Of a DNA stretch of 64,000 nt, positions 715 to 63,727 are shown piece after piece. Source of the DNA: Aporrectodea caliginosa (taxonomy: Eukaryota > Annelida > Clitellata > Crassiclitellata > Lumbricidae). Location of the stretch: contig JACEVL010006441.1 in NCBI GenBank assembly GCA_020284085.1, positions 1,964,501-2,028,500 on the forward strand. The letters are read 5' to 3'. Every line of letters begins with the position of its first letter. The stretch's first letter is position 1. Under the pieces are notes generated by a model. The model worked only from the letters and a program-made list of their open reading frames with translations, ran no database searches and had not been told where the DNA came from. The position numbers were made by a program, and so were the translations under genes.

Positions 715-851
715 CTTTGTCCAGTAGACTTCTGGCCTTGGATAACCAAGTACTTGGCAGTCAAAGGTCGCTGGTTCACCAATCTGAATTGTGATGTCAT
801 GCATCTGGACTCTGAACTCTGGTGGAGTTTCCTTCACTTTCAATACATCCT
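715..851 (-). CDS. TTN: Exon 52: first half of Ig17, last exon in window
   Basis: 137 bp, phase 1 in, phase 0 out, donor GTAATT. It encodes [38 protein letters not shown]. The domain is cut at the mid-domain phase-0 position seen in other Igs here, so the second half should lie left of the window. Confidence 0.9.
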
Positions 852-5780: not shown

Positions 5781-5827
<47 letters not shown>

Positions 5828-23800: not shown

Positions 23801-26800
23801 CAACGTGCTTAAAATCAGTCGCAATGCCTGTGGTAGGTCGTTTAATGGCACCACTCTAAACGTCTTAATACAAATGACTCCAGATAAAGATAAAAAATAC
23901 TAACCTTTGACGATTAGTTCAGCAGTGCTCTGAACTTGTCCACCCTTGTTCTGTGCCTGGCAGACGTATTTACCAGAGTCTTCATCAAACACCTCCGGAA
24001 TCGTCAGCTGAACGCGGCCATTTCTGTAAGTAATTTCAAAGTCTGCACTCTGTGTAAGTAGCTTGCCTTCTTTGTACCACTTGATGCTCGGCTCCGGCTT
24101 TCCTTGAACGTATCCCTCAAAAGTGACGCGAGTTCCTTCCTCGGCCGCTAGGTTCTTCAACGGTTGAATGAACTCTGGCGGCACGGGCAGCTCGATCGTC
24201 ATTTCAACCGGCTGGAACGGTGGTGCTCTCTGCGGAGTCACAAGTTCCTCTCGGTACACAGGTGGTGGCACTGGAGCAGGCTGCACCTTTGGAACAAATG
24301 GAGCTGGCGCATGCACCTTTGAGACTACCGGTGGTGGTGATGGTCTCACTACCGGTTTCTGTTGTGGCACGGTTATCTGCTCACGATAGGTTGGCGAAGG
24401 AGTAGGTGGATGCACCACCTTTGGCGCTTCCACTGGAGGTGGAGCAGGTTTTGGTTGTGGCGGTGGTACGTAAACCGGCTTCGGAGGAGCGGGTGCTGCA
24501 ACTGGTACTGCCCGGATAGGGACCACTGGAGGAGGTCCAAATCCAGCCGGTTGATACTTGGCCTGAGGCGTTTCTGGAGGAGACTCATCCCTTGGCAGAA
24601 TCTGTGATTCATCCACAACTACCAGCAGGGCAGAGCACGTCGCCTTGCCGGCAGCATTCTCGGCCGCGATCGAAAATCGTCCAGCATCTTCGTCAAACAC
24701 CTCTGGGATGTGAAGAATGTGCTTTTCACCCCGTGACGAAATCTGATAATCGGGCGAAACAATCGGCTCATTGTTGAAGAGCCATCGAACCTACAACGAC
24801 ATTCAGAACAGAACCAATAAAGCACTCTGCCCATGAATTTTCTTCACATTTGTTTTAAAATATTGACTAACTCCATGCATCGGTCAACCACTGGTGACTC
24901 TTCTAGACTTCTGTGCACTGTTTAGCTTACTCATGATATTTCTGTGGTTGAGGATTAAAATCCTTACTCGGGCAGAAATTCGGTTCGCGATTTCTGCTTC
25001 ACCTGTGTCCCCAGCCAACTCAGCTATAATGAGCACCATGACTGTACACGGTTGATGGGAAGATGAAATGGCAAGAGAGCCGACTGCCCACCCGCCCTCA
25101 TATGCCGAGGCTAAGAAAATAGTCACCAACACCTCATACCCATGGCTGCCTCAGGACAAGCTTAAGGGACTGCTCTTCTTCTTCTTCGACGACGAGCTAG
25201 CACAGAAAGCGCTTCGATTATATTAGAGTGGCACTATGTAAATTACTTTGTTCCTTCATTCATTCATTTCAAGAATTTATAGAGCGCCCCTTGAAGGAAC
25301 CTACTCATTTTCGCATTGTTATATAAGTTGTAGCACCACTCCTAGAGAGAAACCGCCAAGAGACCCAAGTTGCTGTACCCAGCTGCTAGATAAATATTTA
25401 CAGCACTGACATAACAGATAATTGATGAATGATAGCAACCTGTGGCTTTGGGTGACCCGAAACTGTGACTTCCATGGTACACGACTCTCCTGGTCGTACT
25501 CGCATATCTCGAAAGATTCTGGTAAATTCTGGAGGAACATGGCCAGCGATGACTGTCCTCTGGGAGCTGTGCGACGCTTCAACAAGCCTCGTCTTCATCA
25601 TGTGCTTGTCACCTCCCTGTTTTACAATCAGTGAGGCGTAACACTTGGCTGTTCCGGCTGCGTTGGTGGCCTTTACCATGTAGTTTCCAGCATCTTCCTT
25701 GAACGTTTCAGGAATTGTCAGGCTGTGCAGTTCTCTCTCAGATGATAACTACACAACAAAAATGATTCCTCTATTGTAAAAGCAATAATAATAATCACAA
25801 TTAAATTTATTATTATTGTATATCAAATAGAAAAGATGACCTGGCATTTTGAAGTGGGCCACAAAGAAGGTTCTGATGTACTTTGCAGTTCATAACTCTT
25901 CACTACGGTACTATATACATAATTACTAATTAGGCAACTAATGTATTAATTTAAATAATCTATTAAAATAAAACTACTACTAGTAATGCAATTTTACAAA
26001 TTATTGTTAATACTGTGAATATAAAACATTAAATTATGTCATAACAGTCGAGAATCTAAGTTAAGCTATAAGAAAAACAAGCAGCTTCGCAAAAATAAAT
26101 ACGTGTGAAAAGAAATTCAGAATGAACATCAACGTACAAGGAAGTCTGCCGTCGACAGGATTTGATTGCGACCTCGGTACCATTTAATGATGGGAGTCGG
26201 GTGACCGATTACTCGACAGTCAAATCTCACCAACTCCCCTTCGACTCCTTCAATGTCTTTCAGCAGCTGCGTAAATTTAGGAGGAACTACATCTCCTGGA
26301 AGAGATGTAGAGGCATCACTCTGTTCACTGAGAGCTATAAAAACAAACATGACCGATTGTGGACCACAAAGTCTTTGTTATAATCATAGCTTCAGAATTT
26401 CTTATGCCTCACAGTACTGCTAATAACTCAATTTACTTCCAAGTGTTTTAAATAAATTCTCTGTTAATTGCCAAATGCACAATTATCTAAACAGCACAAC
26501 TAAGCCACTTTCAATACTTACCACAAAAATTAAATGTCTGGCGTCCCTCCCGTAGTGGGACTTAGGGGAGGTACTCATTTCCTTTTTTTCACAGGCCCCT
26601 GAGCTGACACAGGATGAATCCCATGGTCCTGGACATGGGGTGAGAACCTGCTCTTTCTTGCCACCTTGCATTTGCACCAAATTATAACGGTTTCTCTCAA
26701 CTAATTGAGAATTGTTATCTGAAAACCAACTTTTACTCTTAGAACTGAGATCAGGGTTAGGGTTAGGGCTATGGTTTATAAAGCACCCTAGAAGTAGATT

Positions 26801-35800: not shown

Positions 35801-38800
35801 TAAAACTCTAGCTCTGCCCATTCTCAACATAACCTTTTTCTCAAATCAATGTTCTCCAATGACACTATATTACTTGGACTTAACATCATGCAGTTAAGAT
35901 TCATGTTAGATACTCACGTGTGAAACGCCTTTGTGAGGTACTTAAAACACACTATAATTATAAAGTATCATAATACATACACGCACAACATATACTGATT
36001 AATTTGCAGAGAATGATACAATGGTAAGTTTTAACCTAGGTCACCATTTTCTCCTTTGCACTTTGTTCAATAAAAGACGTCAAATCTAGCACATACTGAG
36101 ATCTTCTGCATCTTTAAATCATCTCATTACCTCGCGAAGGTTCTCGAAGAACTTGACGGTCATGTTGAGCAGTATCTGATATTCGTTGATGCGAGCTTGG
36201 AAACGAGTGTGTACCCGTAGCAGTTCATTAACCAACTGATCTCTTTGTCCCTGCGTGTCTCCCTGGAGGGAAAGCAACTCAGCCGTCTTGAGGTGCTTTT
36301 CCACCTCCTCCTGAGCTTTCTGGAAGAAAAAGAAGAAAGACATTCCTTCAGTAACGAGAAAGTCAAATTCATCTTAAATGGTGTTTAACACTTTAACGGC
36401 GAGCGTGCACTAAAATGCATGGAAACCAATCCCTCTCGTTGTTAAGGGGTTAAATGCTGACTCCTGAGTATATGTGCATGTATGAAACATGATTTATACA
36501 TAAAAATGATTAAACTAATTACAGCAATGCATTAATTAAATATAAGTGGAAGTTCCATAAACTGCAGTTAAATAATTGGGAAAGATGAATTACATATAAA
36601 TTAAAAAAATTTATTATTCTAATTACTTAACTAATCATATAAACTCCTGACATGAACTGCATTTATAAGTCTGAAGAAAATGCTTACTTAATCCGAAATA
36701 TTGTGAGATTTTATACCTATAATTTACACGAAGTACCACAATTATATATATGCTCTAAGTGTTTGGCACTGAATTTGTCAGTTTTTTATTATCTTAAGAT
36801 GCACACTTTTAGATCTCTTAGGTAACCAAGTTCCAGGTGCCCCTGAAAGGTTCTTAGAGAGTGTTTTTCATATATCCAGATATCCATACATACACATGTA
36901 CAACAGCATAGTCTGGAGTCTCTCAATTTGTCACAGCTTCACTGTTAATCATTCTGCTTGCGAAAAGCGGTATCAGCCCAGCTCCCACAAAAGGTGGCAG
37001 TTTTTCATGTTGAAAGCATACACATGCAGAAGTAGAAGTAGACTACAAGTCCACTGCCTTCCCATTTTTCTTAACCTGACATAATGCCTGGCATACTACT
37101 CCTCTGTTTCCTTCTAGTGCCCCAATAACCGGATCTTATTCTTCAAACAGCATCTTAGGACAACCTCCCTGACTTGACCCAGCATTCATGAATAATCTGG
37201 TGCCCTATGCATAGCTTTCAAGTAGCACTTAAGAGATTTCCACATTAACCACTACAGTTTAGAGGAAGACCATTGCTCTGATACCAGCCACATGACATGA
37301 ACTACTTCATACAAACAAACTTGATGAGCAAGAACTTAAGCCACATTCAAAGCCAAATAAGAAGCTTTTAAAAGTAGGTCAGACACCATTTAACAATTTA
37401 ACAAAGACCCAACTTGTTCTAATAACATCGTATCTCCATTCTAGACTGAACTTTGAAGACTGAAATATCACAACGAGCAAATTAACATGCATAAATATAT
37501 CTGACATCACCTTTGCAATTGGACCAAACTTGTCCACTTTCTCCTGCAACCTTTTCGCCTCTTCAACATTCCTCCCTAAAAATCCTGCATTGTATGGCAC
37601 AAAGAGCTCCTTCTCTTCCTTTACCAGCCAATCAATGGTCTAAAATCGAAGTAAATACACATTATACGTAACTAACAGGCAGAGCCATGCAGAAACATTT
37701 AACATGATCATGATATCACAGTGAAGAGTATGTGCAATATGCATTCTGCATCAAAACCCTGATCAGGCAGCATTCCAGCCATGCACTGTATCAGAGAGTG
37801 TACCTTCACCATAGGAAAAAATTCAATGAGTTTTTGTTGGAAGCTAACAGCCATCTCCAGTGATGATCCTAACTCTCCAGCAATCAGAGGAAAGAAATCC
37901 TCTTCAAGTTGCATAATCCAATAAATTGTCTAATAAGGAATCAATCAATCGATCAATCAAACAATCAATCAACAAACCAATATTCCAATCAATTAGGACT
38001 ACCAGACATTTGCTGCCTGCTGAACTGACAATGAAAAGCAATGCTCATAAAGCAGACAAAGTTCATTATCAAAATTACATTGAATAGTTCCACGTAAGTG
38101 TCCATGACCTTACATTAAATAGCCATCATGTAGTTAGCTAGACATGTACCACAGACGTCAATATAATCACAAGTAAATTTATAATTTTTCCATTTACCAA
38201 GACTTTCCAAATAAAGTAATAATAAGCACAGTTTCAGCATCTTTCCTGTAAATCTGACAAGTCAGATTATTCAGATTTTAAAAAGTTTTTTGCAACAAGC
38301 CAATTAAATAGTTAGAATTTTTGTGTTTTAGAAAATTCGACATCACTTATTCAAAATAACAATTGTCAAGCAGGCAACGTCGGGCGGTATACCTTGCGCG
38401 CGTCCTGGACAAACTGGTGCCACTGCGTCTTGAACTGTTTGCCAGTTGTTATGTGAACTTTCCAGTGTTCATAGTATTCTGTGATGAGGTACTTCCTCTC
38501 CGAGAAATGTGACAAGATTGTCTCCACAACAACAACTGCACGTCGAGTGTCCAATTTCTCATCTGCCTTCACCTGAAAAAATCATAAAAATTAATAATAA
38601 ATCCATAAATAATTAATAATAAATCCATAAATAATGAATAATAATCAATAATAAATTTATCATGCATTGAACCATCCTCCTGGAACAATCTACCATTAAA
38701 CCTACGAACTATTTCGTCACAGATAGCTGAAGAAATTTTTTCAAACCAACTTAAGACACCTTTTCAGATCTGTCAGCTTGCTATGTTAAGCGCCTTTGTC

Positions 38801-39839
38801 TAATTCTCACAGATGCCGGACACATTAAAAGTAATGTCAGGCATAACAAAGTCTAATACTACAAAGAACAATAATAATGCTGTTTTATAATTAACAAAAA
38901 GTAAACTGAATACAGCAACAAAGTCTACGTGAAAGCAGTTTTCGTAATCATTATTGAAATCCTAATCTCCAGACTTCTAAAGCACCACTTGAAAGCCAAG
39001 CACAGGGTACCTGCTTATTCAAGAGTGCCGTGTCAAGTCAGAGGGGTTGTCCACAGGGTAGTCAGAAGGAGGTCCGAGCCGGGTTGCCAGAGGGTCAATG
39101 GGGGCAGGTTTCATTTAGAACTGGAAAGTGGAGGATCAGATGAGTCTGGGTATGAATTCTTGAAGAGTCGAGATTTCAGTTTTTTGGCACCAATGTTATA
39201 AATGAGAAAACAGCATGCACTAAAACATGAAAATTCCAGTCTCAATTTTTTAATGGCTGAAACTGACCTCGCCAGCTTCTTTGATGAAGTGCTTTCCCTT
39301 GTGTTCGACGTCTGTGTAGCCAGAGTTCAGGTGAGTGAAGCTTTCTTCCTTGTGTTTGATGGCTGCATCAGAGACCTGAGTAGGATCAAGCTTTTCTATC
39401 CGTAGATACTCCTCCAGTGCATCCATCTGAATGGCAAGCTAGAAGGGAGGAACGTTAAACAATTCTCCATATATAACATCATGTAATGTCCCATATCATG
39501 TTCATACCTCTAAACACGAACAACCTATCAACAGACATTGCAGAAACTATCATATTACTAGCTACTGCAAAATATAAATTCCACAGTCTGATGCCATAAA
39601 ATGAAATCTATATGTGCCAATTAGCTTTTAATACAAGCTTTATAATATTTACTGAAAATTATTAAAAGACCTAAATGATACATTTATTCATTAATTCATT
39701 CATATCGAACATTTATATAGCACCCCTTTAAAACGCCAAGAGGCACTCCCAACTCCAGTATGGCCAAAATGAACAGTCTTAAGGTGAGAAAAAAAACATA
39801 GGCGAGGTTTGACAACTGGCTACAACTATAACTGCCCAG

Positions 39840-39902
<63 letters not shown>

Positions 39903-42212
39903 CATACCTACATACATACACTGTGTCCTGAAAAAAAGAGATCCTTTTGGTAATATGAAAATAAACTAGTAAATGTTCGTCGATTTTTTAAATTCCAAGA
40001 CCATTTTAATCCTGACATAATTTGCTAAATACTGGTTAAAGTATAAAAGTTTTTGTTATTTAATAATGACGTCATAATGACGTTATTTTCATCAAAATTC
40101 AAGTGTCAAGGACGGCACAAAAAATCATCTAAAATTGTCAATATTATTTTAAACTGTCATTTATCAATTATACATTTTAGTTTAATTTAATTTTCATATT
40201 TGAATAATTAGACTACAAGGCATGCTCAAAGTGTCCGCCTTCGGCCTCAACACAAGCTTCAAGACGAGCGCGCCATTGGCCAATAGCAGCATCGATAGCC
40301 TAACCAGCTGATCAAATTCATCCCAGGCATTAACAATACGCGCATGGAGTTCTTCAATGTCTCTGATCTTTGTCCTGTAAACCTTCTCTTGCATTAGTCC
40401 CCAAATCTTGTAATCAACGGGATTTAAGTCCGGGCTGTTTGGCGACCAAAGATTAGGAGGTATGAAATCCGGAGTTTCCTTTGTGAGCAGTTCAACAGTT
40501 TTATGAGCTCGGTGAGCTGGAGCACCATCTTGTTGAAATGTGTAATAATCCGAATATTCGCGGATATCAGGCAACAACTTTTCCAACAATCCCGGTAATA
40601 AGCTCCATTTATTTTCACCCCTGGTTCTATTAAATGGATTTCCATTCTACCAAGAGCCGATACACCAACCGAAACCATGACTGACCGACTAAATGTTGAG
40701 CAAGTACGAAGCAAACGATCAGCGATTTCAAGACGTCATTATGACGTAATTGTTTTAACTGGGCCGTTCATAAATTACCAATTTGTTGATAATTATGTCA
40801 GGATTAAAATGGTCTTGGAATTTTAAAAATCGATGAACATTTACTAGTTTTTTTCGTATTACCATAAGGAGTCCCTTTTTTTCAGGACACAGTGTATATA
40901 CATACATACATACATGCATGAATACATACAGACACATACACTGTTACAGGCTAGTAGGGATTGGTTAGGTTAGCTGCAGCCTGTAACAGAAGGGAGGGGT
41001 CAGAGTATCTACAGGAGCACCAAAGCAGGATATGTTGTACAGAGATACCCCTTGTATAAAAAAGATATTTAAAAGAGAGAGTCCAACTGCTAACCTGTTG
41101 TGCTTTCTTGTGAAAGGCAACGTAAGAAAGTGCCAGTCGGATGCGTTGTTGTACATAGGTGTGCAGTTTCTGCCACTGTTCCCGGAAGGCTTTAACCTTC
41201 TCGGTTGACGCTAATGCTTCAGGTGTTCCAAGTTTAGCGATCTCATCTGTGGTTGATGCCAGAGATGCTATGTCCGCAGCCTTGCTCTGAAACAACAGAT
41301 TATTTCAATCATGTCTATGGTTTGAAGTAAAATCTCTAATATTGTTTTGATGTTGGAGATGATTGAGGGCACAGAAGCAGCTTGCTAGCTATGATCCCCT
41401 AGAAATTGTCATTTATGCAATTATAAATCTAATTATCAAATTACATGAAATCACATGCAGGCCTGAAAAATCCCAAAGGTCCTACATAAATGCTTTTAAA
41501 TTTACATTCCAATATCAGTAAAGCTTTTTAAATCATCAAATCAAGCAAAGAAATCCTGACTGATAGCAAAGACAAGCGTCTACATTTATAGTTTCTGATG
41601 GGTTTCTCTTAAAGTGGCACTATATAAATTTATAATTACAAGTACACTCTCAATTACAACTATAATTCACAAGTTAAGCCATAGTCGTAATCATATTCTA
41701 AAAATTTCTACAGCACCTAAAAAACGAAGTCGCAGGAAACAGCTGATTCATAGGCGCTTAGTCAAATATAATCGATAGGCGGGGTGAAATCAGTTCGAGG
41801 GCAAGAAGCAAACCAGAAAGCTTTCTAAAAGCCCTTCAGTTTCTTTCCAGCTACCTTCATGTCTTCGTTTAAGCGTTCATGCAGTTCTAGGAAGTCCCGT
41901 CCTGATGAAAGGTTGGCTCCCATGTCGTTATGTTGTCCGAGCACAGCAACTGCGATCTGTGTCATCCATGAGTTCAGCTGAAATTGCATGAAAACAAAAT
42001 TCATTACCAGATATACTTTTAAACACTTGATTGACTGACTGACTTGACTAATTGACTGACTAATTAAATGACTAATTAATTAATTAACGGATCAACTGAT
42101 TGCCTGACTGATTGATTAAAGCTACTCATTTCAGCCGTGGTTAGGCCAGGAGTGCCTCTGAGTAAATATCTTGAAGGGGCGCTATATCACATTTCTTTGT
42201 ATATCACGTTTC

Positions 42213-42258
<46 letters not shown>

Positions 42259-45200
42259 ATTGAATGACTGAGTTAGTCTGACTGTCAGTAACTGAAGGAC
42301 TTACTGACTGACTCAATGATTGACTGACTAAGTTATATAGTCTAAATTTAATTAGTCATAAAAATGTGAAGACTAACCGTGTTGTATTTGTCTAGAAATC
42401 GATTGAAAGCTTGGCTCTGTTCTCCAGCCTCATATCGAGCTTTGCACTTTTCCTCCAACTTGGCAGAGCGCTCTTGCAATACTGTCATCTGAAAGCACAA
42501 ATCGTTAAAACTCAGTGAATTAACAATTCACTCAGTTAATTTACTTACTGCTGAATAACTGTTAACAACAAGAAGACTTATCTTTGCATTTTGTTCAAGA
42601 ATACCATCTGTACAAACAAGTGTCATATAATTGTCATTAAACTTTAAGAACCAGCAATACTACACAAGTTGTTGCCATGTTTATGTTATTTGTCTTATTT
42701 CAGATCGCAGATGTATAATGCTTATGCTTCCAGGGCAGCATTAGTATGATTTGTCAGCCGGTATTTTTTTGAAGTTTTTTGTAATTTTCTGGGTTTTTTA
42801 GTCTTCAATTAGTTTCTCTGTTCTGCTTAACTGTATCATTATTACTCTCTCCATAACCTGTACTCTTCATTTTTCAGTCATTCATATATTCATATATCTC
42901 ATATTTCCTTTTTCTAACTTAATGTAATGTAATGTAATGTAATGTAACAAGACATTTATATAGCGCCACTCAAGAGTCTCACAGAAGCGCTCAACACGTG
43001 GCCATCAAACAGCTGAAAAAGTGTGTCTTTAAGAGTCGAGAGAAAACCATGTAACCACATGCAGCATTAGTGGCACGAACAGATGGCGGAAGAGTATTCC
43101 AGATCCGTGGCGCCGCAATCGAGAAGTCCCGACGAGCACGTGTGGTGGTTCGAAACGAAGGTACAATCAAGTCATTTCGCGAGGCAGACCGGAGAGCCCG
43201 CCGACCAGTTTGAGTGCCAACTGGAAGGCACAGTTCAGCAATGTAGTCCGGAGCAGTGCCAGTCATAGCCTTCCAAACCAGCGTAGCGATCTTGAAATTA
43301 ACACGATCAGCAACTGGAAGCCAGTGTAGCTCACCCCGCATGTAGTCGGATATGTGTGAATATTTCGGCAGGTCAGCCAGAAGTCTGGCTGCTGCATTCT
43401 GAACGAGCTGAAGTTGACGAATGCGGAACTCAGGGAGGCCCAGGAGGACTCCATTACAGTAGTCAAGACGTGTGAGAACATTAACATTATCTTATGCATA
43501 AAGCATTGGTGCTGGTGCTGAGCAAACACATGCTACTCTCCAAACAGTAAGCTGAAATCTGAGCAGTCCTCATTTTTGAAAAGAATCGTTAGCGTAGGAA
43601 AAGCCGTTACCTTGGCGTTAACCCCTGCCGCTCCGGGGTCATCTCTTCCGACCCTCTCTAGAAGAGTACGACCCTCGTGAAGAGCAGGGGTTACAGCCTC
43701 CACTATGCAGTGGGACAGGTAGGTATGTCGTTCGGCAAGAGCAGCACTGTTACGCGGGAGATCCGTGCTTTCCAGTTGTATTTCAATCTCGTCTAACTTT
43801 GTTACGGCCTGCAAAAAAATAAATGACACCAACCAAAGCATTACATTACCTGCCTTGTGATCTCAATGAGTTAGTTTAACAATGGATGTTATCAGTTTAA
43901 AATACCAGATAATATTTTGAAGCCATTAGTTTATAATAAGAATTATTTTTTTTATATGACCAGTTTATAGTTATAGAACATAGTTTGATGTTATCAATTT
44001 AAAATAGCAATTATTCTTTTATGTTTTTATCAGTTTAGAATAAAAGATTTCTTATGTTATCAGCTTATAATAATGGATTACAATTTATGAATATTCTCTT
44101 ATTTCCTCCTGGCATCCAGACGCAGCGATCAACAATGATGCATTGTGCATGGTAATAACAACAATCAAGAGAAGAGTTACAAATAATATACACAAAAAGA
44201 AATGCTTATATTTATTCAAAGTCATATGTCAAAGCCCATTCTAGAAATCCAACCATGTGAAACTAAAAATGCTAATAAAATAAAAGTGTAACGTTATACA
44301 ATGCAATATAAAAAGAATACGATACAACATAACACAACAAACAGACACAACAAAATATAATATAATATAGAATAATATAGTATAAAAACATCTAAATATG
44401 CGTATATGTACAAATGTGCGTGTATGCCAGTACCATCTGTGCATGTGTAAAGAAGTTTCTGGCAAGCGCAAGATGTTTCCTCCTGGCATCCAGGCGCAGC
44501 ATAAAGCTCTCGCACTTTTCGTCCACAATCTGCAGGCGCTTGCGCACGCTCTCGGCATCCGACCGGGCACTGTGTACAAGCTGATCTGCAGTTCGGATCA
44601 GACGTAGAATTGTCTCTTGGATCTCCTGCAATGCAACACAATCTGATGTTATTCATACCTCAATTATATACGACACTTTCAGATGTTCACTCCTATAAAA
44701 CATAGGAACAAGAACTTACACAAGAAACCTGATCGTTTCTGGCGTCTTGTTTTAAAGATTTTGATTTGAAGTCTTTTTAATTAGAGTAAATTAAACAACT
44801 TTAGGCAAGAAATCAATGTTAAAGCTAATGCACCTAGTAAAAACAAGCAGTGCTATAATTACTTAAAAATATGCAACCATTAACGTATATATGTATGTAT
44901 GTATGCATGTACTTATGTAGATACATAATATGCATGCACGCATGCCTACAAACTGTGCTACTAATTTACAATGTAATGATTTGACTAAAGAAAGAATTAA
45001 ACTAAGAAAATAACAGTAACAAACTTTGGCCTGCTGCTCGAAATGCAATTGTTCTTCTTGGAGTGCATGTGTAGCGGCCAATGAGTCACCCAGGTCCTTT
45101 CGACTGAGGTAGACGTCTCCGACTTTCTCGTACCATTCTGATACCTGGCAAAATAAAAAAAATATAAACGTAATTACAGGCAAATTACTGGCAAATTTTA

Positions 45201-48200
45201 ATAGGCATAAATTGATCTAGTGGACGGGCCAAAACACCTATACAACAGACCCCAACTTCAGATAACAACAACAAAACTCCTTAATAATTAACGAAAAAAC
45301 TGTCCCACTTGCATTCTCTTTTCTCAGGATTCAGTTCACATAGCAGTTGAATGCCTAACAACTAAAGAAATAAAACAATGAAGAATTGTAAAATGTAATT
45401 TACAGTCTCTATTGCACCGGTGTCCAATGCACAATGGCATCAACCAACGACACACCACGACCAAGCCATAATCAGGTGAATATCCAGAAGATCAGTCCAT
45501 AAGACCTAAAGGAAGCCCATGAAGGATAAGAGTCGTGTTTCTACAAGAACCATGAAGAAGACGTACTTTGTTAACTTCTCGGTCCAGCAGAAGCAACTGT
45601 AGACATTGCTCAAGTCGGATCTTGCGCTGTAGCCACAACTCCTCGAGATGGCGCCTCCGATCCTGCAGAAGTTCTAGAAGGTGTTCAATGCCATAGCAGG
45701 CAGCCGTCGTGGCATGGCGGTTCTGGACGTGGGCATGCATTCCCATCTCCCGAATCCTATCCAGCAGCAACTGCCCCTCCTGAAGCGTCAGCATCGACGA
45801 CTCCAAGATATCTACAACGTCCACAACAGACACTTAGCATTACGCTCTTCAAAGCAATGTCAAAAATTAGTAGACATTAATCTAACCAGAATGCACACTT
45901 GCCTGATTATTAATATACCTAATAAGTCGTTTTAATTTTGCAGCACTATTTAATGATTCATTCATAAGGCCGAGGTGAAAGCAATTTTTCTTCAAAAAGA
46001 CATAATAACTCTGAAGAACTTGGAAACTGAATAGCAGATGGTTGAATCTGATCAGTACTGAATCCATAAAGGTTAAGATCCGTGCATCTGTGGTACCAAG
46101 TCTGATTAGTACAGTAACTTCCAGAGTCCATATAGTCCACATGTGGATTGGGAGTAAGGGGAGAGAGAGACACGAGATGCAACAGAGGATTTTCTCCAGA
46201 AAAGACATTTTGCCAAAACCAGCACACAGATGCTATGTACAGAAGAGGTTACTCATAAATGGTTTCATAAAAAAATTAAACACTTTTGCCAATTTTTAAC
46301 ATGTCCATCTTTCTTTCCCAAGCACCTTTGTTTATGGAGGTCTAACTACCATGTATCATCTTCACATGGAATATATCAAAAGTTGAACAGTCCTTTATAC
46401 ACAATCAAGAGTAGAAGATAAAACAGAAAACGAACTCTTTTTCATGTCCTGATGCTGTTGAAGCAGATGTCTAGCACTTTCCACATCAGGGGCAAGGCCA
46501 CCGGACGAAAATCTGTCCTGGGCCTCTTCCATTCGGTGTGAAAACTAAAGACAGAAACAGAAAAGTACAGTGTGGACTTGTTCATCAACTCCCAATTTAT
46601 GCACCATTGCACTTATCATAAAGTGTGTTTACCTATCCAAAGCTATTAACTTAAAGGGCTGTATTGGTTAACAAGTCGTTCAAAAGCTGCACTGAAGCAC
46701 TAAATATTGACTTTTGCAGCATTATTCCTTTTTACACGTGGCCCTTGATAACACGCTGTATCATAAGGCATTTTCTCCCAATGACTTTAAGTCCACAGTG
46801 CATCTTTGCCTCAAACAGACAGCTTCAAACCTCACAAAATCTTAAAGGCGTTCAACCATCCACATATCAACTGCTTCATCACCTGTGCACAGAATCATAC
46901 TTCTTTGTGACTTTGCATGCTTCACAGATTTCTCAATAACAATAATAAAACTAATGACTCAAAACATTTAAATAGAATACAGACTATGCCCAGTGCACAT
47001 GCACTTACTTCCAAGGAGCAATATGCCTTTGTTTCACAAGCTGCTAAAATCTAGCTTATATCGCCATGGTTGGGCTGGTAGCGCCTCTGTGTAGGCTTCT
47101 TGATGAGGCGCTATATAAATTTTCTAAATGAATTAACTTCCAATATGCAGCCCGCTTACTGAAAAACAATAAATTTCCTAGCAACAGAATGTCTATGGTA
47201 GCTTGCCTACCTCAAGCAGGTGCTGACATAGAGAAACACTAGTTTTCATCAATGCTAAGAAGTTGATGTACATTTATATGCACCTACACCTTAGCGGCTT
47301 ATTATTGGTTTCACCAACTTTTGATTATGGCTAAACTTAGAGCAGCCATCAGTTGAATTCTTGTGCAGTATGATAATGGAGCTATAGAAGTCACTAGATT
47401 AGACAAGATTAGATTAGATTTAGATGGAAAAGGAAACAGAAAGTAAAATCACAATAGAACAAAAATCAAATACCTAGTAACAATATAAAAGGAAACAGAA
47501 AGCATAATAACAAGCAAACTAAAATCAAATACCGTACCTAGTAATGATATATAATTTTCTTTCATTTTCTGTCTGTAACACTTTAACAATGAGCTTGTAC
47601 CAAAAATGACTGGGAAACCAATGCACTTGCCGTTAAAGCGTTAAATCACAACTGTTAAATTTATGTAACATAACCAACAGTTTAAACAGACTCTCAACTT
47701 GACAATCTGTGGTCAGCAATTAAAGTTCTGACCTGTAGAGCACTCTCGTGGAATGCAATGCTTTGGTCTAGCAACATCTTGCGATATTCAAGTTGTTTGT
47801 TGAGGTCCTTCCACGCCTCGGCGAGCGACGTGGCCATGGCACTGTAGACCTCTTGGTAGGAAGTGTTCTGTACTGCTAAGTCATCAGCCCGTGCAAGTAA
47901 CTCCGTCACATCCTTCTGCTTTAACTGTTCAACACAGACCATCACAGCTATTAGCAATATGTCCATGTTGATATACGGTTATGTAATCATTCGTTGCACC
48001 ATCAATATTACTTCACAAAAGCATGTTGAAGGATACTTCAGTTTAAACAGAAACATGATAAATTTTCTATTTATGTATATATATGCACATTGCATGTGTG
48101 TATGTATATATATATGCCAGTATGCATGTATGCGAGACTGCGAGTATGTATGCATGTATATGTACCTGGCATGTATATATGCATGCTTGTATGCATGCAC

Positions 48201-51200
48201 ATCATATATATGCATATGTAATTATGTATAGATGTATGAATTTATATCTGAATGCTTATATAGCTCCCTTCACAGGCCTCTCAGATCTAAAGAGGTACAA
48301 TCTAAACTGTAATTAAATGTTGAGTGCAACCATTTGAAATTTTAGTGGATGAGTTTTGCAGAATGACAGATCAACACACAGCACAACTATAGGTATCTGT
48401 GTCATTGCTTGGGGAGCAGGACTTTAGGAGCAGGACTTAGGGAGCAGGACTAACTCCATGGGTTGCAAAGCAACAGTATTTCTAGGCTAGCCCGAGACAG
48501 AACAAAGAGAATTCTGACCAGTGGTTAAAGTGGTTTGGTGAGCAGTGGGAACTCCGAAGACAGTTTTCTTGGAAAGCATGTGTTATCAGGGTTCAATTAC
48601 AGGGTGAGCAGTGGGAACGCAAGCTTGGCAACACATTTCGAGAGCAGTGGGAACGCCGTTCCCACACCACTTTAAACCCTGATCCTGACATATTCTGGGA
48701 CACATTCTGGAACAACACCAATTACTGATGTCCACCCTATAGAGCTGTTCTATACAATGCTATTCTGTCTTCGACATGGAGCCAGAGCATTGTCCCCTGC
48801 ACAGAGTTGGAAACATCCAAGCCTGGACAACAAATTTCACGTAATTCACTTGAATTTTACCTATCTAGGTCGAAAGGCAAATGCATTAACCATCTGCAAC
48901 TTTACCATGCAGCAGTACAGTGACACTATCCAGTTATGAATTACTGATGGCATCACGAGGTTGTGCTTGAAGGTTGGTTAGTTGCTGTTTAACGATACTG
49001 TGTCATAATCACAAAGATGATTAGTGTCGCCCTCTTCTGTTCTCCAAGCTTGGGACTGGCACTACCAGACTACGAGCAGTGGCTGATTTTATGGTCAAGT
49101 TCCTTAAAAATGACCATTTTGTTGGAACCATAGTTGTAAAAAACATTTTTTTCGTTTTTTATTTTTCCCCAAAAACGTCGTTTTTTTGTTTTTTATTTCT
49201 CGTCTCGTTTTTTCCGTTTTTTATTTCTTCATGTAACTTTATTTATTTATTAACTGTCTGTTATTATTTGTTTAATTTTATTTTTGTCTGATATCCCTTA
49301 CGTTGTCTCCGTCCTTTCAAGGATTCATATAATTTACGTCACTATTTGGTGTCATCGGTTGAAATAAACAGCTACAGGAAATAAAATTTATAAAAGTTAT
49401 TTGAATTTCTAAGTTATCAAAAATGCGAATTGTTGTCTTTGTACTCAGTAATCTCTGATTGACTAATAAACTGACGGATATTACTCCATATCAAGTTCTT
49501 ATATAAGTCAGAATTGTAAGTAGACCTACTTTTTAATTAAGTAGGCTACACTCTATACTTGCAAAGTTTAGTTTTTAGTTGCTTATGTCTGCATGGATTG
49601 ATGTGGACTTAATGTATATAATTTTAATTTGAAAAGATTTCAATATTTTTAATTTATCAAATTCTTTTTAAACCAAACTTATGAAAAAGAAAATAATTGT
49701 TGTAGATTACTGTTACTTGGTGTTTACTAATAAAGTTATGTTATTTGCTAATTAAAATTAAATTGTGTAAACAAGGTTTTAATTTTAAAATGCAGTAAAA
49801 GATGTAGAAAAGTCAAATTATTTTCTTTTCCGTTTTTTTTCTCGTTTTTTCCGTTTTTTATTTTTTTCAATAAAATGACGTTTTTTTCCGTTTTTTATTT
49901 TGATTTGACCGTTTTTAACAACTATGGTTGGAACTTCACACCATCTGAGGAGCCGTATTAGGTAGAGGCCAGTTGCATTTGACAGTGTGTGTAAAGCATC
50001 TTAGAAGTGGCTTGCTACTGATGATGCTCTAGAAATTGTTGTAATTACAATTACAATTACATTCATTCTCTGCATTGCAAAGTCAACCATCAATCAACCA
50101 ACCAACTACTGTGTCACGTAATAAGCATACCTAAGTTAAACTAAGCAGATTTGTGCATACCAAGTTAACTTAACCGATAAATCAACTTAACAAACTTAAT
50201 TTTAAATCTCAACACAACTTAAACAGAAACTCATTCTGTACGTGATAAATTCATGCTGTTGATAAGTAACAAACTGCAAAATGTTAACTTGCAGCTGTCA
50301 CATTTTGTTTTTGTAAAGCACAAGATCACATTTCTAAAGATCTTAGCATAACATAACATAACTACTGAGACTATGGGTAATAAATGCGTGATTACTGTAC
50401 TAAGCATTACCTTCTGTAAGAGATAAACTACAGAAAAGCCTTTGGTAATTATAAAGGTCAGCTATATTAAGACAGCCACGAGATTTAATCAAATTATTCT
50501 GAAAATACATGAATACAACAGTTTGGAGTTTGCCTTAAAAACTTTCATGACCACTTAAGAAAACAAGTCTATTTAAATAAAAGAATTCTCCCACCAGACA
50601 GGCAAAGTACAGACATGGAAAATAGTTCATGAAGAGAACCAAAATAGAAGAAAATGTTAGGAAACACTCAGTAGTTAATGCTATAAACAGCCAGCGACCC
50701 AGCTTTAACTACAACACAGGAAGGTAGGATAGAAATAAAACGGAAACTTCAGAAGCTACAAAAAAGAACATAGGCCATTCTCTTGATTGCCAACAACAGT
50801 TACTACCAGCAGGGCCTCGTCTAACCGTTTGGCTGATAAGGAACTACTACAGTTGGTAACAAGCAGTTGATAATTCAGTTTTTTTATGCACAGCAAATAA
50901 ATAAACAGCACACAGGGTACAGTAGGCACAAATACTGGGTAGAATATACATCCAAAGACATATACATGTAGGGTCTTGTAGGCAGGCCTTTAGTATCTTA
51001 ACAAGGCACTCACAGTATCCAGATTTTTTCAACACTTTAACGATGAGCGTGTACTAAAAGTGACTGGGAAACCAATGCAGCTCATCGTCAGTGTTTAAGT
51101 ACTCACAAACCCATGCAGATAGAGCAAGTACTAGGTACTCAAAAATATGCAATCAGAAAGTTTTTCTGCACATCCAGGTAGACAGACAGATAGATCTGAG

Positions 51201-52593
51201 TACTTTATAAGTACTCGAAAGCAAGTATACTGAAGTACCCAAAGTATCTTAATAAAGTATTCAGAGTATTGAGAATGTCTTGTAGTACCATCAAATTCAA
51301 TGAGCTCATACAAACAAAACAAACAGAACTAAGTTATGCCAGTAGAAAACCATTTTTATCCAAAGATTTGTATACGTGTGTGGACATAAGGTTTTTAAAT
51401 CTGTAACTTAAAAACATTTAATTGCACAGTCAGTACCAGTAGTTGAGTTGTACAAAATTTCTTTTGATGTTTCCCTAAAAAGTTTCTCTCTAGTTAACAA
51501 GCTTCTACTTAACAACATTAATATAATATTGTCTTTTATGTTTGTGCTATGCATGTAAAATATTAAACACACTGTTACTACTGCCATATACTATATGTAC
51601 ATAGGTCAATCCAGCCTCAGCGGGACCACCTGACCAAGGTGACCTTAATTGACCTGACCTATTTGGATTGATCTTTGACTTCTGCATCATTTATTTTTTT
51701 ATTTTTTTATTTTTTATTTATTTATTTGAAACAGTGAACAGAAAGAACTCAGTAAAAGAAACATAACATACAATAAAACAATGTACAGAAATGATAATAA
51801 GACAAGTTAATGTAAAATTGTATAAACAGTGCAATTTACTATAAGTTTATTTTTTATTTTTGTAATGACTGTTCTTGTTGTGATATTATAGTGTTGATGT
51901 TCTGTCAAAAAAAATTGGCCAAAGCACATCTGCAACGTAGTCATGTTAATGAAATAATCCATCAACCGAGATAAAAAGTGTGCATCCAGAAAAAGTTCAG
52001 ATCAATCAGAGGATGGAAAATAATTAGCTGTCCATCTGTTCTACGCCCTTACGGGAAGTCCTACACGAAGGTCGAGTCTATCTGTCGCAGCCGCAGAAAG
52101 GTCACCAATTCATATTTACGTGTTTGTTTACATTTGGGGATGAGCAAATCCGTTGCCTCTACATGAAACCCAAAATAAAGCCATCTAACCATTTAACATA
52201 TTTTCTGCCAATGTGCCCAGCATGCACAAGGTAATCAACTATGGTCAAACCTTGATACATTTCTACATATAACATACAGCCACCACAAATGCTTAGAATA
52301 ACATAAGGTTAGATTACATTATTAATAATAATAAAAATAATAATAATAATAAAATATTACAAAGTTTTATTAAGACTAAACACTTGTGAAGCTATGCATT
52401 GAACACTGCACGTATGCTTGCAATGATAATCTTTCTTTTAAGGCCACCATTAATCATCTAATTTAATCTGTAATTTGGTGTCCCTACTTAGCGGGATCCT
52501 TTATCCCTTTAGGATCTCCTCTTTTGTAGCTGAGTTGCAATGATATGTAAACCTGATGATTCTGTTTGATTGGTTGCAAAATAAACATTCTGG

Positions 52594-52651
<58 letters not shown>

Positions 52652-55600
52652 TATCTGGACACACATAGAGCATATTTGAAAGCTTTAACAATAGGAGACT
52701 CTGGAATCTCTCAAAATCTGCCCTTTGTCAACATCCACTTTGGAGAATGTATCATAAATTCAAAATCTGGAGCTTAATAATAGTGCAGCTCAATATTTTA
52801 CATGCACTGATGAATGATTCCGTAGATTAATGCAAACTTGGAATATGGCAACATTCCTGAAAATGATTCTAGTTGGCAGAGTAACATTATACTAGCAGAG
52901 CAGCATTCGAAAAGCCAGACGCAATAGAGCCATCAGAACAGCCACGAAGCTAGACCAGAGGGAGCCACAGCAATGGACTCACTGCAAATCTGTAAATAGC
53001 TCATCGGCAGCGATCAAGAACAACTGGATAAAGAAAGAAGAACACGAGACGAAAGAAAGGAAGACAAGCGGAGAGACTGAGAAACAAACAAGACCAGACG
53101 GAGGGAGAGACAGAAACACAGAGAGAGGAAAACAACCCGCTCGCAACGTTCGACAGAAGCAGATCGCGATGAAATCGAGCATTTCTCTACAATGCAAAAC
53201 TACAAAAGAAGGATCTACTGTAATAATTCAAAGAAGAACGTATTCAACATAACTCATATCGCCGAGGCTTAATGCACGCTTCAAGAGCAATGCATCTAGA
53301 TAAGAGAAATACAGACAGACGTATGGTTCGTAAGATCTTTACTTCCACAGGCCTCCTACCACTCTTCCTAGTCGCTGTGCAAAGTGTATAAATAGAACAT
53401 GTAAACATCATACGGAATGAAAGCTTATAGCAAAGGCACAGCGCATCAGAGTGAGAAATAGAGATATAAAGAGAGAAATGTAAAGTATGTATACACGTCT
53501 GAAGAAGTTCCACTGAAGCGATACGTGCATTCATATTATGAAGGCGTTTTCTAACCATTTACTTGGAGGAAAGTGAATAGCTATGCTATTAAATAGCAGT
53601 TAAAATGAATAGTTAGAGGAAAAGATGCTAAGACAGTGAGCTCATAGAAAAAAGAATCGTGAGAAACTAAGGAAAGTTTTTGTCTTGAAGATCTAATGGA
53701 AGCACTGCTTGCTCTCCCAAACCAAACGATGACTTCGGTGTACCAGAAAATCAAACAAATTTTGCACTAATCTACCATACACTAAATGGACAGCTTAATA
53801 TGAGCAACTGACCAGATACTTTAGTAACTTTGCAATTAAAAAAATATTTAATGAAAATTTAGGTATGCGAATCACCACACAAATTTCACAAGGTCATAAG
53901 AAATGCCAAGACAAACATCAACAATTAAACAACTGCTAAATGAAACACTTGTCAAAAACACAGGTTTGCTGATGCACAAAAAATATATTACCCTTTGTTA
54001 GTGAATAATAACAAAACTAGAGTTAAATAAATATATATGTGTGTGACGTCGGCCGAGAGAAGGGACCACTTGTCGGGAATGGACTTGTTAACAGTTTCCA
54101 TAAGCTTATACCATCAAAAATCAGGGTAAAAATTTCAAAACGTTTGGCCCAAAATTTATGAACTTCTGAGAGAAAATATAAAATATCATTTGGCAGGAAA
54201 TCACCTATAAACATTGAAACTGTCTCTGCCCGATGCGTTAATACCAGATTTTTGGCCTTAGAACATCATGTGGAGTAATATAGGTCGCTATACAGCGATA
54301 ATTAGCTTCAGATGCAGTAATTAGACGCTAAAATCAATAATCACGATATTACAAAAAACCCATTTTCCGGCTGATCTAGAACCCGACAAGTGGTCCCTTC
54401 TCTCGGCCGACGCCACATATAAATAAGAAAATAGCAACATTCCATTTTCGCATAATGTTTCAATCTTAATAAAAAATACCTGCAGTAAGAATGCTAAGTG
54501 AATCAACTGAAATGAAACTTTGATGCATGACTGGTAGAAATATTTAGCTAAGAAAAGTGATTGATGTGAGACTCACGTTAAGTTTCAGTAATAGTTCGTC
54601 ATGTTCTCTACGAAGGTTTCTGGCTTCCTCCAGTGTTGCTCCCACTTCCATGATGTCAGGTTCCATCTGCTGTATCCGAACTCGGATCCAGTCATGACTC
54701 TGTGGAAAAGATAATCACCCAGACATGAAGAACAGAATACATCCTTCAAACAACACAAATTATATTTTGCATATGCTACCATAAAATTATATTTTGCATA
54801 AGCCAACATAAATTATATTTTGCATATGCTAACATAAATTATATGTAGCATATGCTAACATAAATTATATTTTGCATATGCTAACATAAAATTATATTCT
54901 GCATAAGCCAACATATTATATTTTGTACATGCTAACATAAATTATATTTTGCATACGCTAACATAAAATTATATTGTGCATAAGCCAACATAAATTATAT
55001 TTTGCATATGCTAACTAAAATTATATTTTGCATAAGCCAACATAAATTATATTTTGCACAGACTAACACAATTATATTTGGCATATGCCAACATATTATA
55101 TTTTGTACATGCTAACATAAATAATATTTTGCATATGCTAATATACATGTAACTAATATTTTGCATATGCTAACATAAATTATATAATTATTGAACATGT
55201 CAAAATACATTATATTTTGCAAATGCCAACATAAATTATATTTTGCATATGCCAACATAAATTCTCGAGGATTCTACTACTGACATCAGTTTATTTGGAA
55301 CCCCTGAAGTTAAGTTAATTGGACAGGTTAATAAGTTTGTGTTAATAGTAAAAACAAAGATCTTGTCATGTAGTATTTACAAGCATTTCTTTTATCAGTT
55401 CAATGAATGCTAATAATGCACAATTTTTAGTGTCATTTTTGTTGTTAAATTTTTCCGGAGGTAAAAGCACCCGTCAATTGGAGAAGAGCGAAGTGCTATA
55501 TTTTAAATGGCTCTGAAGTCTTCACATAATACGCATCAATTTAACCTTAACTCTAGGTCAGCCTTAGAAAATGCCCTTCTTATCAAACAACTTGTCATAA

Positions 55601-58600
55601 CACAATACAATACAACTGTTATTTGATAATGCCTTCCTTAAAAAGTTCAGAAATGCACATTGAAGCCAGGCAACCTAGTATTCAATGTAGCTCCATAAGA
55701 TAGCATTACAAACATTTAAGTTCCAGTGAATTATTATTACTTTAAAAATGTGCTTCGGGTGGACTTAAAGTAGTACTTACTTATTGAAAAGCAACTAATC
55801 ATAATCATAATCTCGAGATCTCTACAGGGCCCAAAAAAGCCAAGTCACGGGAACCAGCTTATTCACAGGCTCTTCTTGATGTCTATTGACATTCATGTGA
55901 TGGACAATTGATGTGCATTATTATGATGCTGTAGATGTTTCCAGATAAGAACACCAAAGGGTTATGGCATATCAACAGTTGCTGGGTTTTACTGCACTAA
56001 TAAAATTTGAACCAATGTTACTAATAACTACTTCTGTTACTGTAGATAACTGTGGTAGAGGCTGTCGCAGGCCTATCAGTAAAACTATGAAGATTATCTA
56101 GAAAACACTGTTAACATATGTATCTACCAAAAGAGAAATCTAACATCCATAAAATTTCTATTTCAATGGATTTGTGTGTGAGATCAAGAAGTTGTATTCA
56201 TAAACAAAATAATTACTAATTTGTACTAACATTATAAATGGTATTACTTTTATTATTAAAAACTGAGTTAACATTCTCCGAACTATAAAAACTCTCTGAC
56301 ATTTTGTAAAGAAAACTCATGTTACGTTTGAAGTAGCAATGACTTGTCTTTTTCAAGTCCAGATGTCTTAACATTGCATTGCCTACTAACACAAACTATC
56401 TGCCTGTTACCAAGGAACATGTGCAATTGATCTTAAGTGTAATGGATCCATGGCTGTGAAATCTGGAAAGAATTTACCAGACTGGCAACGAGGTGATTAG
56501 AAGTACTGTATTCCTTCAGAGAAGAATCACCTTTTCCTGATTTCTAGCCCGAATGAATGGATGTATGGATGAATGCATGAAGTGAAGCAACAACCTGGTT
56601 CTTTCTGGCTTGATTTTACATCGTGACAATAAATAAGCTGATCTGCAGACTCCGCTTTCGTATAGCACTGTGAAATGTTTTAGACCTACGTTTACAGTTA
56701 GAAGATAATGCGGATGATTTATAATGTAGTTTAACGCCAGGGATAGTTGCATATTTCGACTTTTATGATTCATTCATTCATTCATTCCGGATATTTATAT
56801 AGCGCCTCTTCAAGAAACCTACTCAGAGGCGCATGTTAGGCTTCCTAAACCACAAAAGTGACTGCTTTGCAAACCAAAATGCAGTTAGCAATTGGTATAA
56901 TAAAGGATACACTTACTTACTTACTTAGCCTACATGAAGTAGCTCAAACTGTACTAATAAAGTCAGTCGTGTTACAATTACATGACGCTTTAGACATTGA
57001 ACCACAGACAGGAACTTAGTCACAACCCTTAAGCTCTGAGACAACCGACTGAGAAGCTATGCTGGGAACCAAAAACTAGAAATATGCTATTTTGTAATTA
57101 TTCAATTACATTTCTCATGTATTCTGTAATTTGAAATTACATTCAATGTCCCAAAGTAATTTGTAATTTGTAATTCAATTACATTTTCCCAAGTAATTTG
57201 CCCTTCCCTGTGTCTTCGACATTGAACCACAGACAGAAACTTAGTCACAACCCATAAGCTCTGAGACAACTGACTGAGAAGTCATGGTGGGAACCAAAAA
57301 CTAGAAATCCGCTACAGTTCTAGAATTCTTCATGAGTTACAGAACTCCTTAGACACATTCTCAGCAGACAGCCAACCGAAGGATAAGAGGACTATTTATA
57401 TATTCACATGTCGGCAGCTAAAAGATAACTGAGTGCAGACTAAACAGCCGAGTTACGGCTGTTTTCAAAATATGTACAGAAATCAGGCACCACAGCACCA
57501 GCCCACCAAAGTGCTCAACTATCTCAGACTACAACCAGAAATGCCAATGATGAGTCATGCGAGAAATCTACAGTTTCCTTTGATACCACAGGTTCTTGGA
57601 TTTCTGAAGCTTTCACTATCAGACTATTCAGTATCTTGAATCGTAATCGTATCTCCAAACTTCTAAAGCACCAAGTGCTCGAAAGCCAAGCGCAGAGCAC
57701 CTGAAGGGGCGCTATATAAATTTTGATTGATTGATTGATTGATCTCACATTTTCAACAAGCACTAACAAAATCTCTTTGGTCACAGTGTCCAATCAATCC
57801 CCCTGCTTAATATAGTCTAGAGGTGCTTCAGTATTAATTTAGTACTGACTGTACTGTAGTACATTACCCGACTTTACATGTGTAGTGAAGCACAATTCCT
57901 CTATTCAGGATCTCTACAACTAGCCAATTGTAGTACTTCGGACAGCTATTGTTTTGTATTGTACTGTATATGTATATTGATCTTTAGATAGAAAATGGCT
58001 GTGCTACTATTGGAAGAATAAAGCAGAGGCTCAAGTATGAATATTTATACCAGTTTTACCATACATGACATTCTTGCAGATTTCCTTCGATCACAGAAAT
58101 GTGTCTGCCACACAGAAACAATATTTAACCTGGTGTCAAATATAGTTAAACTCATCTCAGGTACATCCCCTGCTGAGGTATCAGTCAACTATGACCTATT
58201 GACATATAATGGCTACGACAAGTTCTTATTTATTCATCATCATTGCGCTTAGGGCAAGCTGCAGATCCTGACTTTGTCTAGCCATTTCATTAAGTAGGGA
58301 TAATAATGATAATAATATTCGTTTATTAATTCAAACTGACAAGTATGCAGTACGATTACATGATAAAGTACCGTAGTAACAGATCTACGATAACAAGTTT
58401 AACAGGAGTCGAATTTAACTGTATGGCAGCCTGCAACGCGCCCATCTGTCCTACTGCTCATTTTACAGTTGCCCCTACGGAGTGGAAGGCTGAGTCAACC
58501 CTATGGGGTTAGCAGGTGTCAAATGTTAATACAAGCATCAATTAATGCAATGTTACTACACATTCATACATCATCTTCCAAGTACATTTGAAAGGCACTA

Positions 58601-61600
58601 AACACCTCTAAGAAGTAGGGATGTTAAACGAAATTCGGAAATCCGAATTTCGGTTTTGAAAACGAAATTCGGTTTTTATTATTGACAAAACGAAATTCGA
58701 ATTTAGAAAAAAAATCATTTTTGTAGTGAAAATTTCAAGAAATGCCAGAAAGAATTAATTCATGCATTTCTTTAGTGTTTACGATTGTTTTCATCAAATA
58801 TAGCCGGCAGATAAGAAGGTGTTTATTAACGTACGTTACAGTACCTAATATATAAAATAACTTGCGTTATAAAATAATATATTAAATTTTCTATAAAGGC
58901 CAATAAAAAAAGAAATTCGGTTTAAAATCGGATTTCTAAAACCGAAATTCGGATTGCCAAAAAATCCGATTTTAACAACCCTACTAAGAAGTGCTCCAAG
59001 TACTTCCTTAACTGATTCCTGCATTAATTTTTAATAAATTTATACCCCTCTCAAAATGAATCTCTTAATGTTAGCTTCTATACTGGCACACGATACATGT
59101 ATCCATTTGATGGAGTGAATTTTGCCATCATGATGACAGTGACTTCCAAAAGATCACACACATGTTGAAGCAATGGTCATAGACATCTACTGATCAGAAG
59201 TACATCTGAATGTAGCTGCAAGTAACTGCATCATGGACTCTGTTCCTGGACCTATTGGAACTCAAGAAATTGGCACAGTCAACCAATGACTGAGTAAGTG
59301 TGCAACAGTAATGATTTTACAATCTCAAAGCTCCTCAACTTCAAACATGAGGTACAAAAACTGGAAGTTGGCTCAGTTTTCTGATCTTCTGAATATTTAC
59401 CTACTATAGCTTGGTGCACCATTGTTTTGATGCCTTGTCCATTAGACACCGCATGACAGAAGTCACTAATTGAGATTAATAACAATTTTTCCCACTATAA
59501 TAATAATTGTGCAATTGTGAATTTTGCAGAAAATTCAACATTAGCTCAAAGCAGCAATTGTTCCAAAATTCATCTACTTGCTTTCCTTCATCAATTTCTG
59601 CTAGCTTCACATTAACTAACTCTCTCCAATATTATTCTCTTTCCAGAAGATTCTAAACTAATGAAAGACATGCATGGCATCTATTTCCAGCTCTTGAATA
59701 CTTGCAGTGCTTCTGCTTCGGCATATGATTAACGCAGTTCCTACATTCCTAGAATTTCCATCAACGATTACCAACCAACGCAGTTCGCCGCGATGACTCA
59801 CCGGCAAACTGCGCAGCATGCACTGCTCAGGTTTATACTAAAACTCTTCAACATGCGTCGACTTCAGACGCCCTACCAGTCATCAAAACACGAGTCTGCC
59901 GTAACGATAAGCAAGAGCATGGTACCGAGAGCATGCTCATCTGATCTTTCATCCCCTCCCTTTCTGAAAAGATGCTATCTTTTTATCTCATCATGTTAGT
60001 TTAGACATTTAAAAAGAATAGGAAACTCTCAGTAAAACTGAAATGCTCATGGCATTCAATGTATTATAGATCTGTCTTAGAGAATGTTTGAATAGGCATA
60101 CCAAACTAACTCAAGTGGAAGAAGCTGCATGTAGATTGGTAAACAGTGGTTTGAACCCTGTATGGTATTACGTAGGTATAGTTTTCAAACCAAGATCTAA
60201 AAGAATATACTAACTTTAACTAGATCTCAAGCTTGCAACAAACTTTGTTTCATTAGCTGGGGTGGAGGCTGTTCGTTCCACTAATGGTAGGTGTATTGTG
60301 AGCCTCCTATACTAAGCAGGCTGACCACTTGACTATCATATACCTCCTGTAAGAACCTTGAGCAAGTCTTTAATGCATAATTACTTTATTTAATTGACTA
60401 AAACCTTAGCATTAGGTATGGTAACAATTAGAGGTGTCAATAGTTTAGTTTGGTACATTCTAAGGGGGTATTGGACAACTCACTGGATAATAAATCAATC
60501 ATCCAATGGACCCCCATGAGGGTCATTAAGTGCACATAGGCCTAATTCAAAGTTAGTTGAGCAGTCACATTACCCAAAGGCCAGGATATCCCTCAGACCA
60601 CCAGTAGAACAGTGCAATACTTTCTATTCACTCTTAGAGACTAAAGAAATTTGTTTTTCTACAGGATTCACTGGTTGATAACTGACCACTGCAACCCAAT
60701 ACCTCCCACCCACTAGCTTCTCGGGTCACAGCATAATTAAATCTGCCTAAAATAATCATCATACTTCTTTGCGGGGTTTCGATAGATGATTTGTGACACG
60801 GGCATGGGCGTATTTAAGGGAGTTTTCCGGGTTCAAACCCCCCATATAAATTCCCGAATTTTTTTCTATGCGAAATACCAAAAAACTGAACTTTTCGACC
60901 ATTTCCAATGGAACCCTTCCCCCCACTGAAAATTTAAAACCCCTCCGAAATTTTTTCCTGGCTACGCCCATGGACACGGGTACCACCCTTCAGCTGGGTA
61001 CAGAGGATTATACTAGACAAGATTCAAATACTATTAACAAGGACATGTTTACCAAAAAATGGTAATGAAATGCAGAATGCTTCGGTTCCCAAAGAAACCA
61101 TTTACAATTTCCTTAATTCGAGCATTTGCAATTTCCTTAATTCTAGGCTTGTACCTTCAGCCAACCAAACTTTTGGTAAGTCATATGGGCATATAAAAAA
61201 ATAGACAACCAATCTACATAAACAAAATATTGGTCCATCACTGGTTTCCACATTGGAAGGAATGCGCTAAGTGCTAAGTGCTCTTTAAAGTCATCGCCAA
61301 CAGCCACAACAGCTTTTAAGAACCTGGGCAAAGTATTATTTAGAGATAGTTAAAGAAATTTTCAGTTTTACAGCTATCCAGGTGTCTTAACAGCCTCAAC
61401 TCAAATCTTTTTGCCCTGTGTTTACAATAAATTACTTGACAGATTGAATGCTAAGTCACAGAAAAAAATCATCCACTTAAAGCAGTCAATGAGATTAATC
61501 TTGAGAGTCGGCACTTGTCGTTGGAAAGGAGAAGGGAGAGTGAAAATTCACAGACTGTAAACACATCAGACTCAAAAAAAATTTCGACTGCAATTACTCC

Positions 61601-63727: not shown

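Follow-up and report, generated by a model that had tools for sequence, protein, structure and literature searches.

A CCDC141-type spectrin rod and a titin immunoglobulin array predicted as one gene in the earthworm Aporrectodea caliginosa

Are CCDC141 and TTN, separate genes in vertebrates (PMC12198301) and neighbours in humans, the two halves of one ancestral gene? The question is raised by a locus of the earthworm Aporrectodea caliginosa, studied here in a window of 64,000 nucleotides (positions 1964501-2028500 of contig C4536, JACEVL010006441.1, in a genome of 1.1 Gb). Our final model, on the minus strand like all window features below, has 50 exons, 10,197 nt and 3,399 codons with 0 stops. 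Exons 1-20 encode a CCDC141-type rod (31976..63685, residues 1-1107), exon 21 (31094-31194) holds both the end of the rod and the start of the first immunoglobulin (Ig) domain, and exons 22-50 encode the Ig region of titin. The original prediction, made from the letters alone, had proposed such a single frame, and this is borne out, as are its diagnostic motifs on both sides, 6/6 of which were found where expected, on the minus strand; its 52 exons were essentially recovered, although the count is 50 here (its exons 19-24, 33590 to 29662, are our exons 18-23). We favour the reading that rod and titin half form one gene encoding a single giant predicted protein, the locus being most likely the surviving undivided ancestral gene.

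One frame across rod and Ig array

A gene finder self-trained on the frames of C4536, with a cost of 12 units per start and per stop, predicted one continuous chain that starts at the ATG at 63685 and runs on past the end of the window. Several rod exons that it skipped or put in the wrong place were assigned manually by splice site and phase, with human CCDC141, to which the rod is collinear, as a lead. Borders are AG..GT (or ATG..GT) in 49/50 exons; the sole non-GT donor among the 50 is the GC donor of exon 32 (18398-18659), GCAAGT at 18397-18392.

The rod and titin lie together both in this frame and in transcript-like sequences of relatives. The junction falls within exon 21, which is continuous in P0001, P0031 and P0062, and two of these, P0001 and P0031, are intron-free JGI frames that run across it and are very likely complementary DNA (cDNA) of relatives. 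P0001, which played no part in building the rod model, is 70% identical to the locus, matches it in order at 25/25 sixty-residue blocks and has identical exon borders across the junction. One of the two frames, 4,653 codons long, follows the locus from exon 1 to a point 11 kb past the window; of its 77 blocks, 52 find a match, and 51 of these are collinear. On the titin side, the motifs FEERL.., PERKL.., QLPEG and DFRS.. occur in the window in that order; by comparison with human titin they are candidate Z-disc and near-Z linker motifs, and only QLPEG was found by a pattern search in 158 fetched proteins (10/158).

Several observations weigh against a single gene. Support for joining comes from the frame and from relatives, and the identification of P0001 and P0031 as cDNA is drawn from their lack of introns. 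P0001 reaches only into the fourth Ig, where it runs out in a tail with no match, and P0031 is of the type of a second copy in this genome (C19, below), being closer to it in 5/6 shared exon pieces. Blocks in order against the locus are less tidy elsewhere, as Ig repeats predict (scallop 53/90, octopus 43/68, leech 34/41), and exons 4, 7, 19, 31, 33-35, 40, 43 and 50 are among those with a weak one-sided splice score. Ig1 follows the rod directly, yet the best match for the C-terminal part of CCDC141, in one turtle and two frog proteins, is Ig7, Ig16 or Ig2. NCBI lists separate "CCDC141-like" proteins in a chiton and some snails (Liolophura, Pomacea and Babylonia), that of Babylonia having no Ig match, and automatic gene models can merge neighbours. 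Finally, when starts and stops are made free, introducing an ab initio gene break changes the score by +0.1 to -5.6 and only a break inside Ig1 is costly (about 25). Ab initio scoring by itself is thus not informative on a break, and the case for joining depends on homology and transcript-like sequence.

These points give some room to an arrangement of two same-strand neighbours, a zormin/CCDC141-like rod-plus-Ig gene and titin, with phases compatible by chance and joined models produced by annotation merges or rare read-through. The separate vertebrate genes, the separate snail and chiton proteins and the neutral free start/stop test all agree with it, but we regard it as improbable because the junction sits inside one exon, the single 4,653-codon frame covers both halves, and joined models recur in several phyla.

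Distribution and identity of the rod

Giant Ig proteins with the rod, many of them named titin, are annotated in molluscs, a brachiopod, arthropods, an acorn worm and amphioxus, so that the joined models include the non-vertebrate deuterostomes Saccoglossus and amphioxus. In a tree of the rod from the window and 31 chosen relatives, the window groups with three further JGI sequences, P0031 and the leech Helobdella (100/100), which probably places it among earthworm-leech annelids. Vertebrate CCDC141 joins amphioxus (95/89) and Saccoglossus (95/95), on a tree with long vertebrate and amphioxus stems and odd composition in both vertebrate sequences and one amphioxus sequence. Since the tree follows animal groups, the rod looks inherited with the animals rather than locally assembled.

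A fusion confined to one lineage, annelids or protostomes, of genes that were once separate would agree with the unfused state of vertebrates, the best known group. The joined architecture in several phyla, with Saccoglossus and amphioxus among them, speaks against this, as does a rod tree that tracks animal groups and in which vertebrate CCDC141 sits within the joined genes of deuterostomes, and we consider such a fusion very improbable. Instead, the joined models across phyla and the position of vertebrate CCDC141 indicate that vertebrates probably split one ancestral gene into CCDC141 and TTN, in line with the earlier proposal that they carry its two halves.

The rod itself carries five spectrin repeats, Spectrin_7 and DUF7799 in Pfam. 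Searching with the front 1,315 residues against 7,992 scored proteins of 723-2,301 residues returned 25 at an expectation value (E) of 0.001 or less. Identities were 66-75% for three JGI frames, 47-54% for molluscs and a nemertean, 39% for amphioxus and 30% for a rotifer. Vertebrate CCDC141 reached 24-26% identity (turtle, E=7e-107 over 85% of the query) and, rather than SESTD1 or kalirin, gave the best named vertebrate matches within this length range; because TRIO/kalirin and short SESTD1 lie outside the range, the preference for CCDC141 over these families holds as a partial comparison. CCDC141 and SESTD1 queries gave E=2e-7 and only E=0.09, respectively, on a 264-kb stretch. Turtle CCDC141 holds AVQAGDSRIVIAILK, like the exon 1 motif, and a 10-residue motif identical to that of exon 5. 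By searches, tree and motifs, this rod, of spectrin type and about 1,100 residues long, is an orthologue of vertebrate CCDC141. The predicted structure of its relative P0003 (mean predicted local distance difference test, pLDDT, 82; predicted template modelling score, pTM, 0.35) has a three-stranded sheet at 31-64, corresponding to exons 1-2, followed by nearly all helices, and its seven PDB matches at E<=0.001 are every one spectrin repeats.

That the rod is instead another spectrin-family segment (a relative of SESTD1, TRIO/kalirin or obscurin) has a negligible chance. In its favour are the distant MCF2L2/DBS similarity (E about 1e-5), the Pfam SESTD1 spectrin model, which scores 22.3 bits, below its cut-off of 27, and the name kalirin-like given to one amphioxus relative. 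Against it, the turtle match, within the length range searched, and both turtle motifs point to CCDC141, the first 1,315 residues gave no SEC14 or RhoGEF match at E<=0.05 and hence not the TRIO/kalirin module set, and the window rod aligns best to 1000-1689 of amphioxus P0014, behind the SESTD1 part of this model, which has SEC14, SESTD1 repeats and rod together.

Exon layout, alternative exons and further copies

The rod exons lie at 63587-63685 (exon 1, with the ATG and the first strands of the predicted N-terminal sheet, likely an alternative first exon), 54577-54699, 47733-47924, 46436-46544, 45567-45811, 45025-45144, 44434-44625, 43611-43808, 42378-42488, 41855-41977, 41095-41286, 39268-39438, 38393-38572, 37511-37639 (exon 14), 36131-36319, 35192-35368, 34331-34480, 33276-33590, 32567-32750 and 31976-32097 (exon 20). 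Exon 14 has a candidate second version: version A, at the position given, is matched by P0001 and P0003, and version B, at 37804-37929 in the same phase, by P0011. Among 24 relatives covering this exon, A scores higher in 10 and B in 14 (two amphioxus sequences being nearly tied). Because the two types are intermixed within molluscs and within annelids, the pair looks like old, candidate mutually exclusive exons.

Exons 22 and 23 hold the remainder of Ig1 (30330-30553) and Ig2 (29662-29961). Ig3-Ig6 and a proline-rich linker (24400..29206) follow in exons 29052-29206, 28049-28315, 27239-27419, 26138-26334, 25440-25748 and the first part of 23905-24790, across which the Aplysia model P0002 aligns. 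Exons 31-36 lie at 19353-19498, 18398-18659, 17354-17537, 15283-15425, 14529-14656 and 13540-13776 (with a 12-residue motif). Exons 37-50 (715..12949), also matched by the scallop P0027 and octopus P0146 models, lie at 12702-12949, 11710-12047, 10507-10800, 9991-10048 (10-residue motif), 8778-9212, 7602-7807, 6442-6585, 5865-5952 (ETQLPEG), 4804-4975, 4013-4199 (11-residue motif), 3459-3575, 2706-3012, 1829-2046 and 715-770. Rod-half introns at 42994-43491 and 40197-40646 contain remnants resembling the reverse-transcriptase end of a long interspersed nuclear element and a mariner-type transposase. Below the window, at C4536:1924938-1953338 (minus strand, 11-40 kb away), very long repetitive frames of up to 2,323 codons appear PEVK-like by eye, and about 85-117 kb downstream the same strand holds frames recognised by eye as fibronectin type III-like.

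The genome holds three loci. Besides the window there is a second CCDC141-rod and titin copy on C19 (290-231 kb, minus strand), for which the rod end, junction exon and Ig1 have no match among the matches listed. The third, on C121 (356-249 kb, minus strand), carries SEC14 and SESTD1 repeats along with an Ig array and two weak pieces of the rod, and is the only locus found here that retains the SESTD1 third. SESTD1/SEC14 queries matched C121 and, more weakly, C776 and C366; they had no match on C4536 (17/17 candidates scored in one search, 23/53 in another). Separately, C70:3435453-3436790 carries a COX1 match with a score equal to that on C4544, presumably the mitochondrial contig; this would be either mitochondrial DNA copied into the nucleus or an assembly join.

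Comparison with connectitin and zormin

More broadly, we propose that the undivided gene, with a CCDC141 rod ahead of a titin Ig array, is the normal bilaterian state, present in annelids, molluscs, brachiopods, arthropods, acorn worms and amphioxus. Titin would have begun with a Z-disc spectrin arm that only the vertebrate line cut off into a separate titin-binding protein, while this animal tripled the gene and parted the pieces, with SEC14-SESTD1 at one copy only; we put the probability of this proposal at about one half. The locus itself gives the ancestral gene, so far hypothetical, a form open to cloning and staining in living bilaterians, and indicates that the split happened on the vertebrate line. 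Were the fused protein made, the vertebrate titin N-terminus at the Z-disc would be a derived cut end and CCDC141 titin's own detached arm, which predicts the location of CCDC141 and titin partners in common. A review passage reports that CCDC141 binds A-band titin and nesprin-1, and heart-rate studies name the gene; the binding would fit a general tendency for parts that are fused in one lineage to interact in others that keep them separate.

The original prediction knew of no description of the arrangement; this part does not stand, since PMC12198301 (Hanashima et al. 2025) already proposes from synteny an ancestral single gene SESTD1-CCDC141-TTN, named connectitin, with SESTD1 as a third piece. 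That paper reports connectitin in cnidarians and placozoans, terms the single gene of ancient animals hypothetical and has it diversify into three genes in bilaterians; it also cites transcripts spanning CCDC141-TTN and zormin-sls and places zormin beside CCDC141. PMC5521747 describes zormin as the smallest of the Sls isoforms, located at the Z-disc and the M-line; our comparison with Drosophila zormin/sallimus (kettin) goes by description, and a relative in a mosquito aligns to the rod at 24%. The public "titin" or "titin-like" models of Lingula, Ylistrum, Mytilus, Octopus and Saccoglossus are predicted and belong to other phyla, and the papers found give no CCDC141-titin description for them; nor did we recognise a description of an intact bilaterian gene in the literature searched, where coverage of subscription journals was thin.

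The window locus resembles connectitin in having the CCDC141 rod and then titin, in the same order and in one gene. It differs in its lack of a SEC14/SESTD1 match, those matches lying at the paralogue on C121, and we therefore class it as connectitin-derived rather than as a complete connectitin. It also departs from the account in PMC12198301 in that rod and titin are, on our model, still joined in a bilaterian. What is new here is the extant bilaterian example, the three loci in one genome and the old alternative-exon pair. The locus adds a new, well-preserved case to an idea already in print, dates the split more sharply and comes with copies specific to the lineage.
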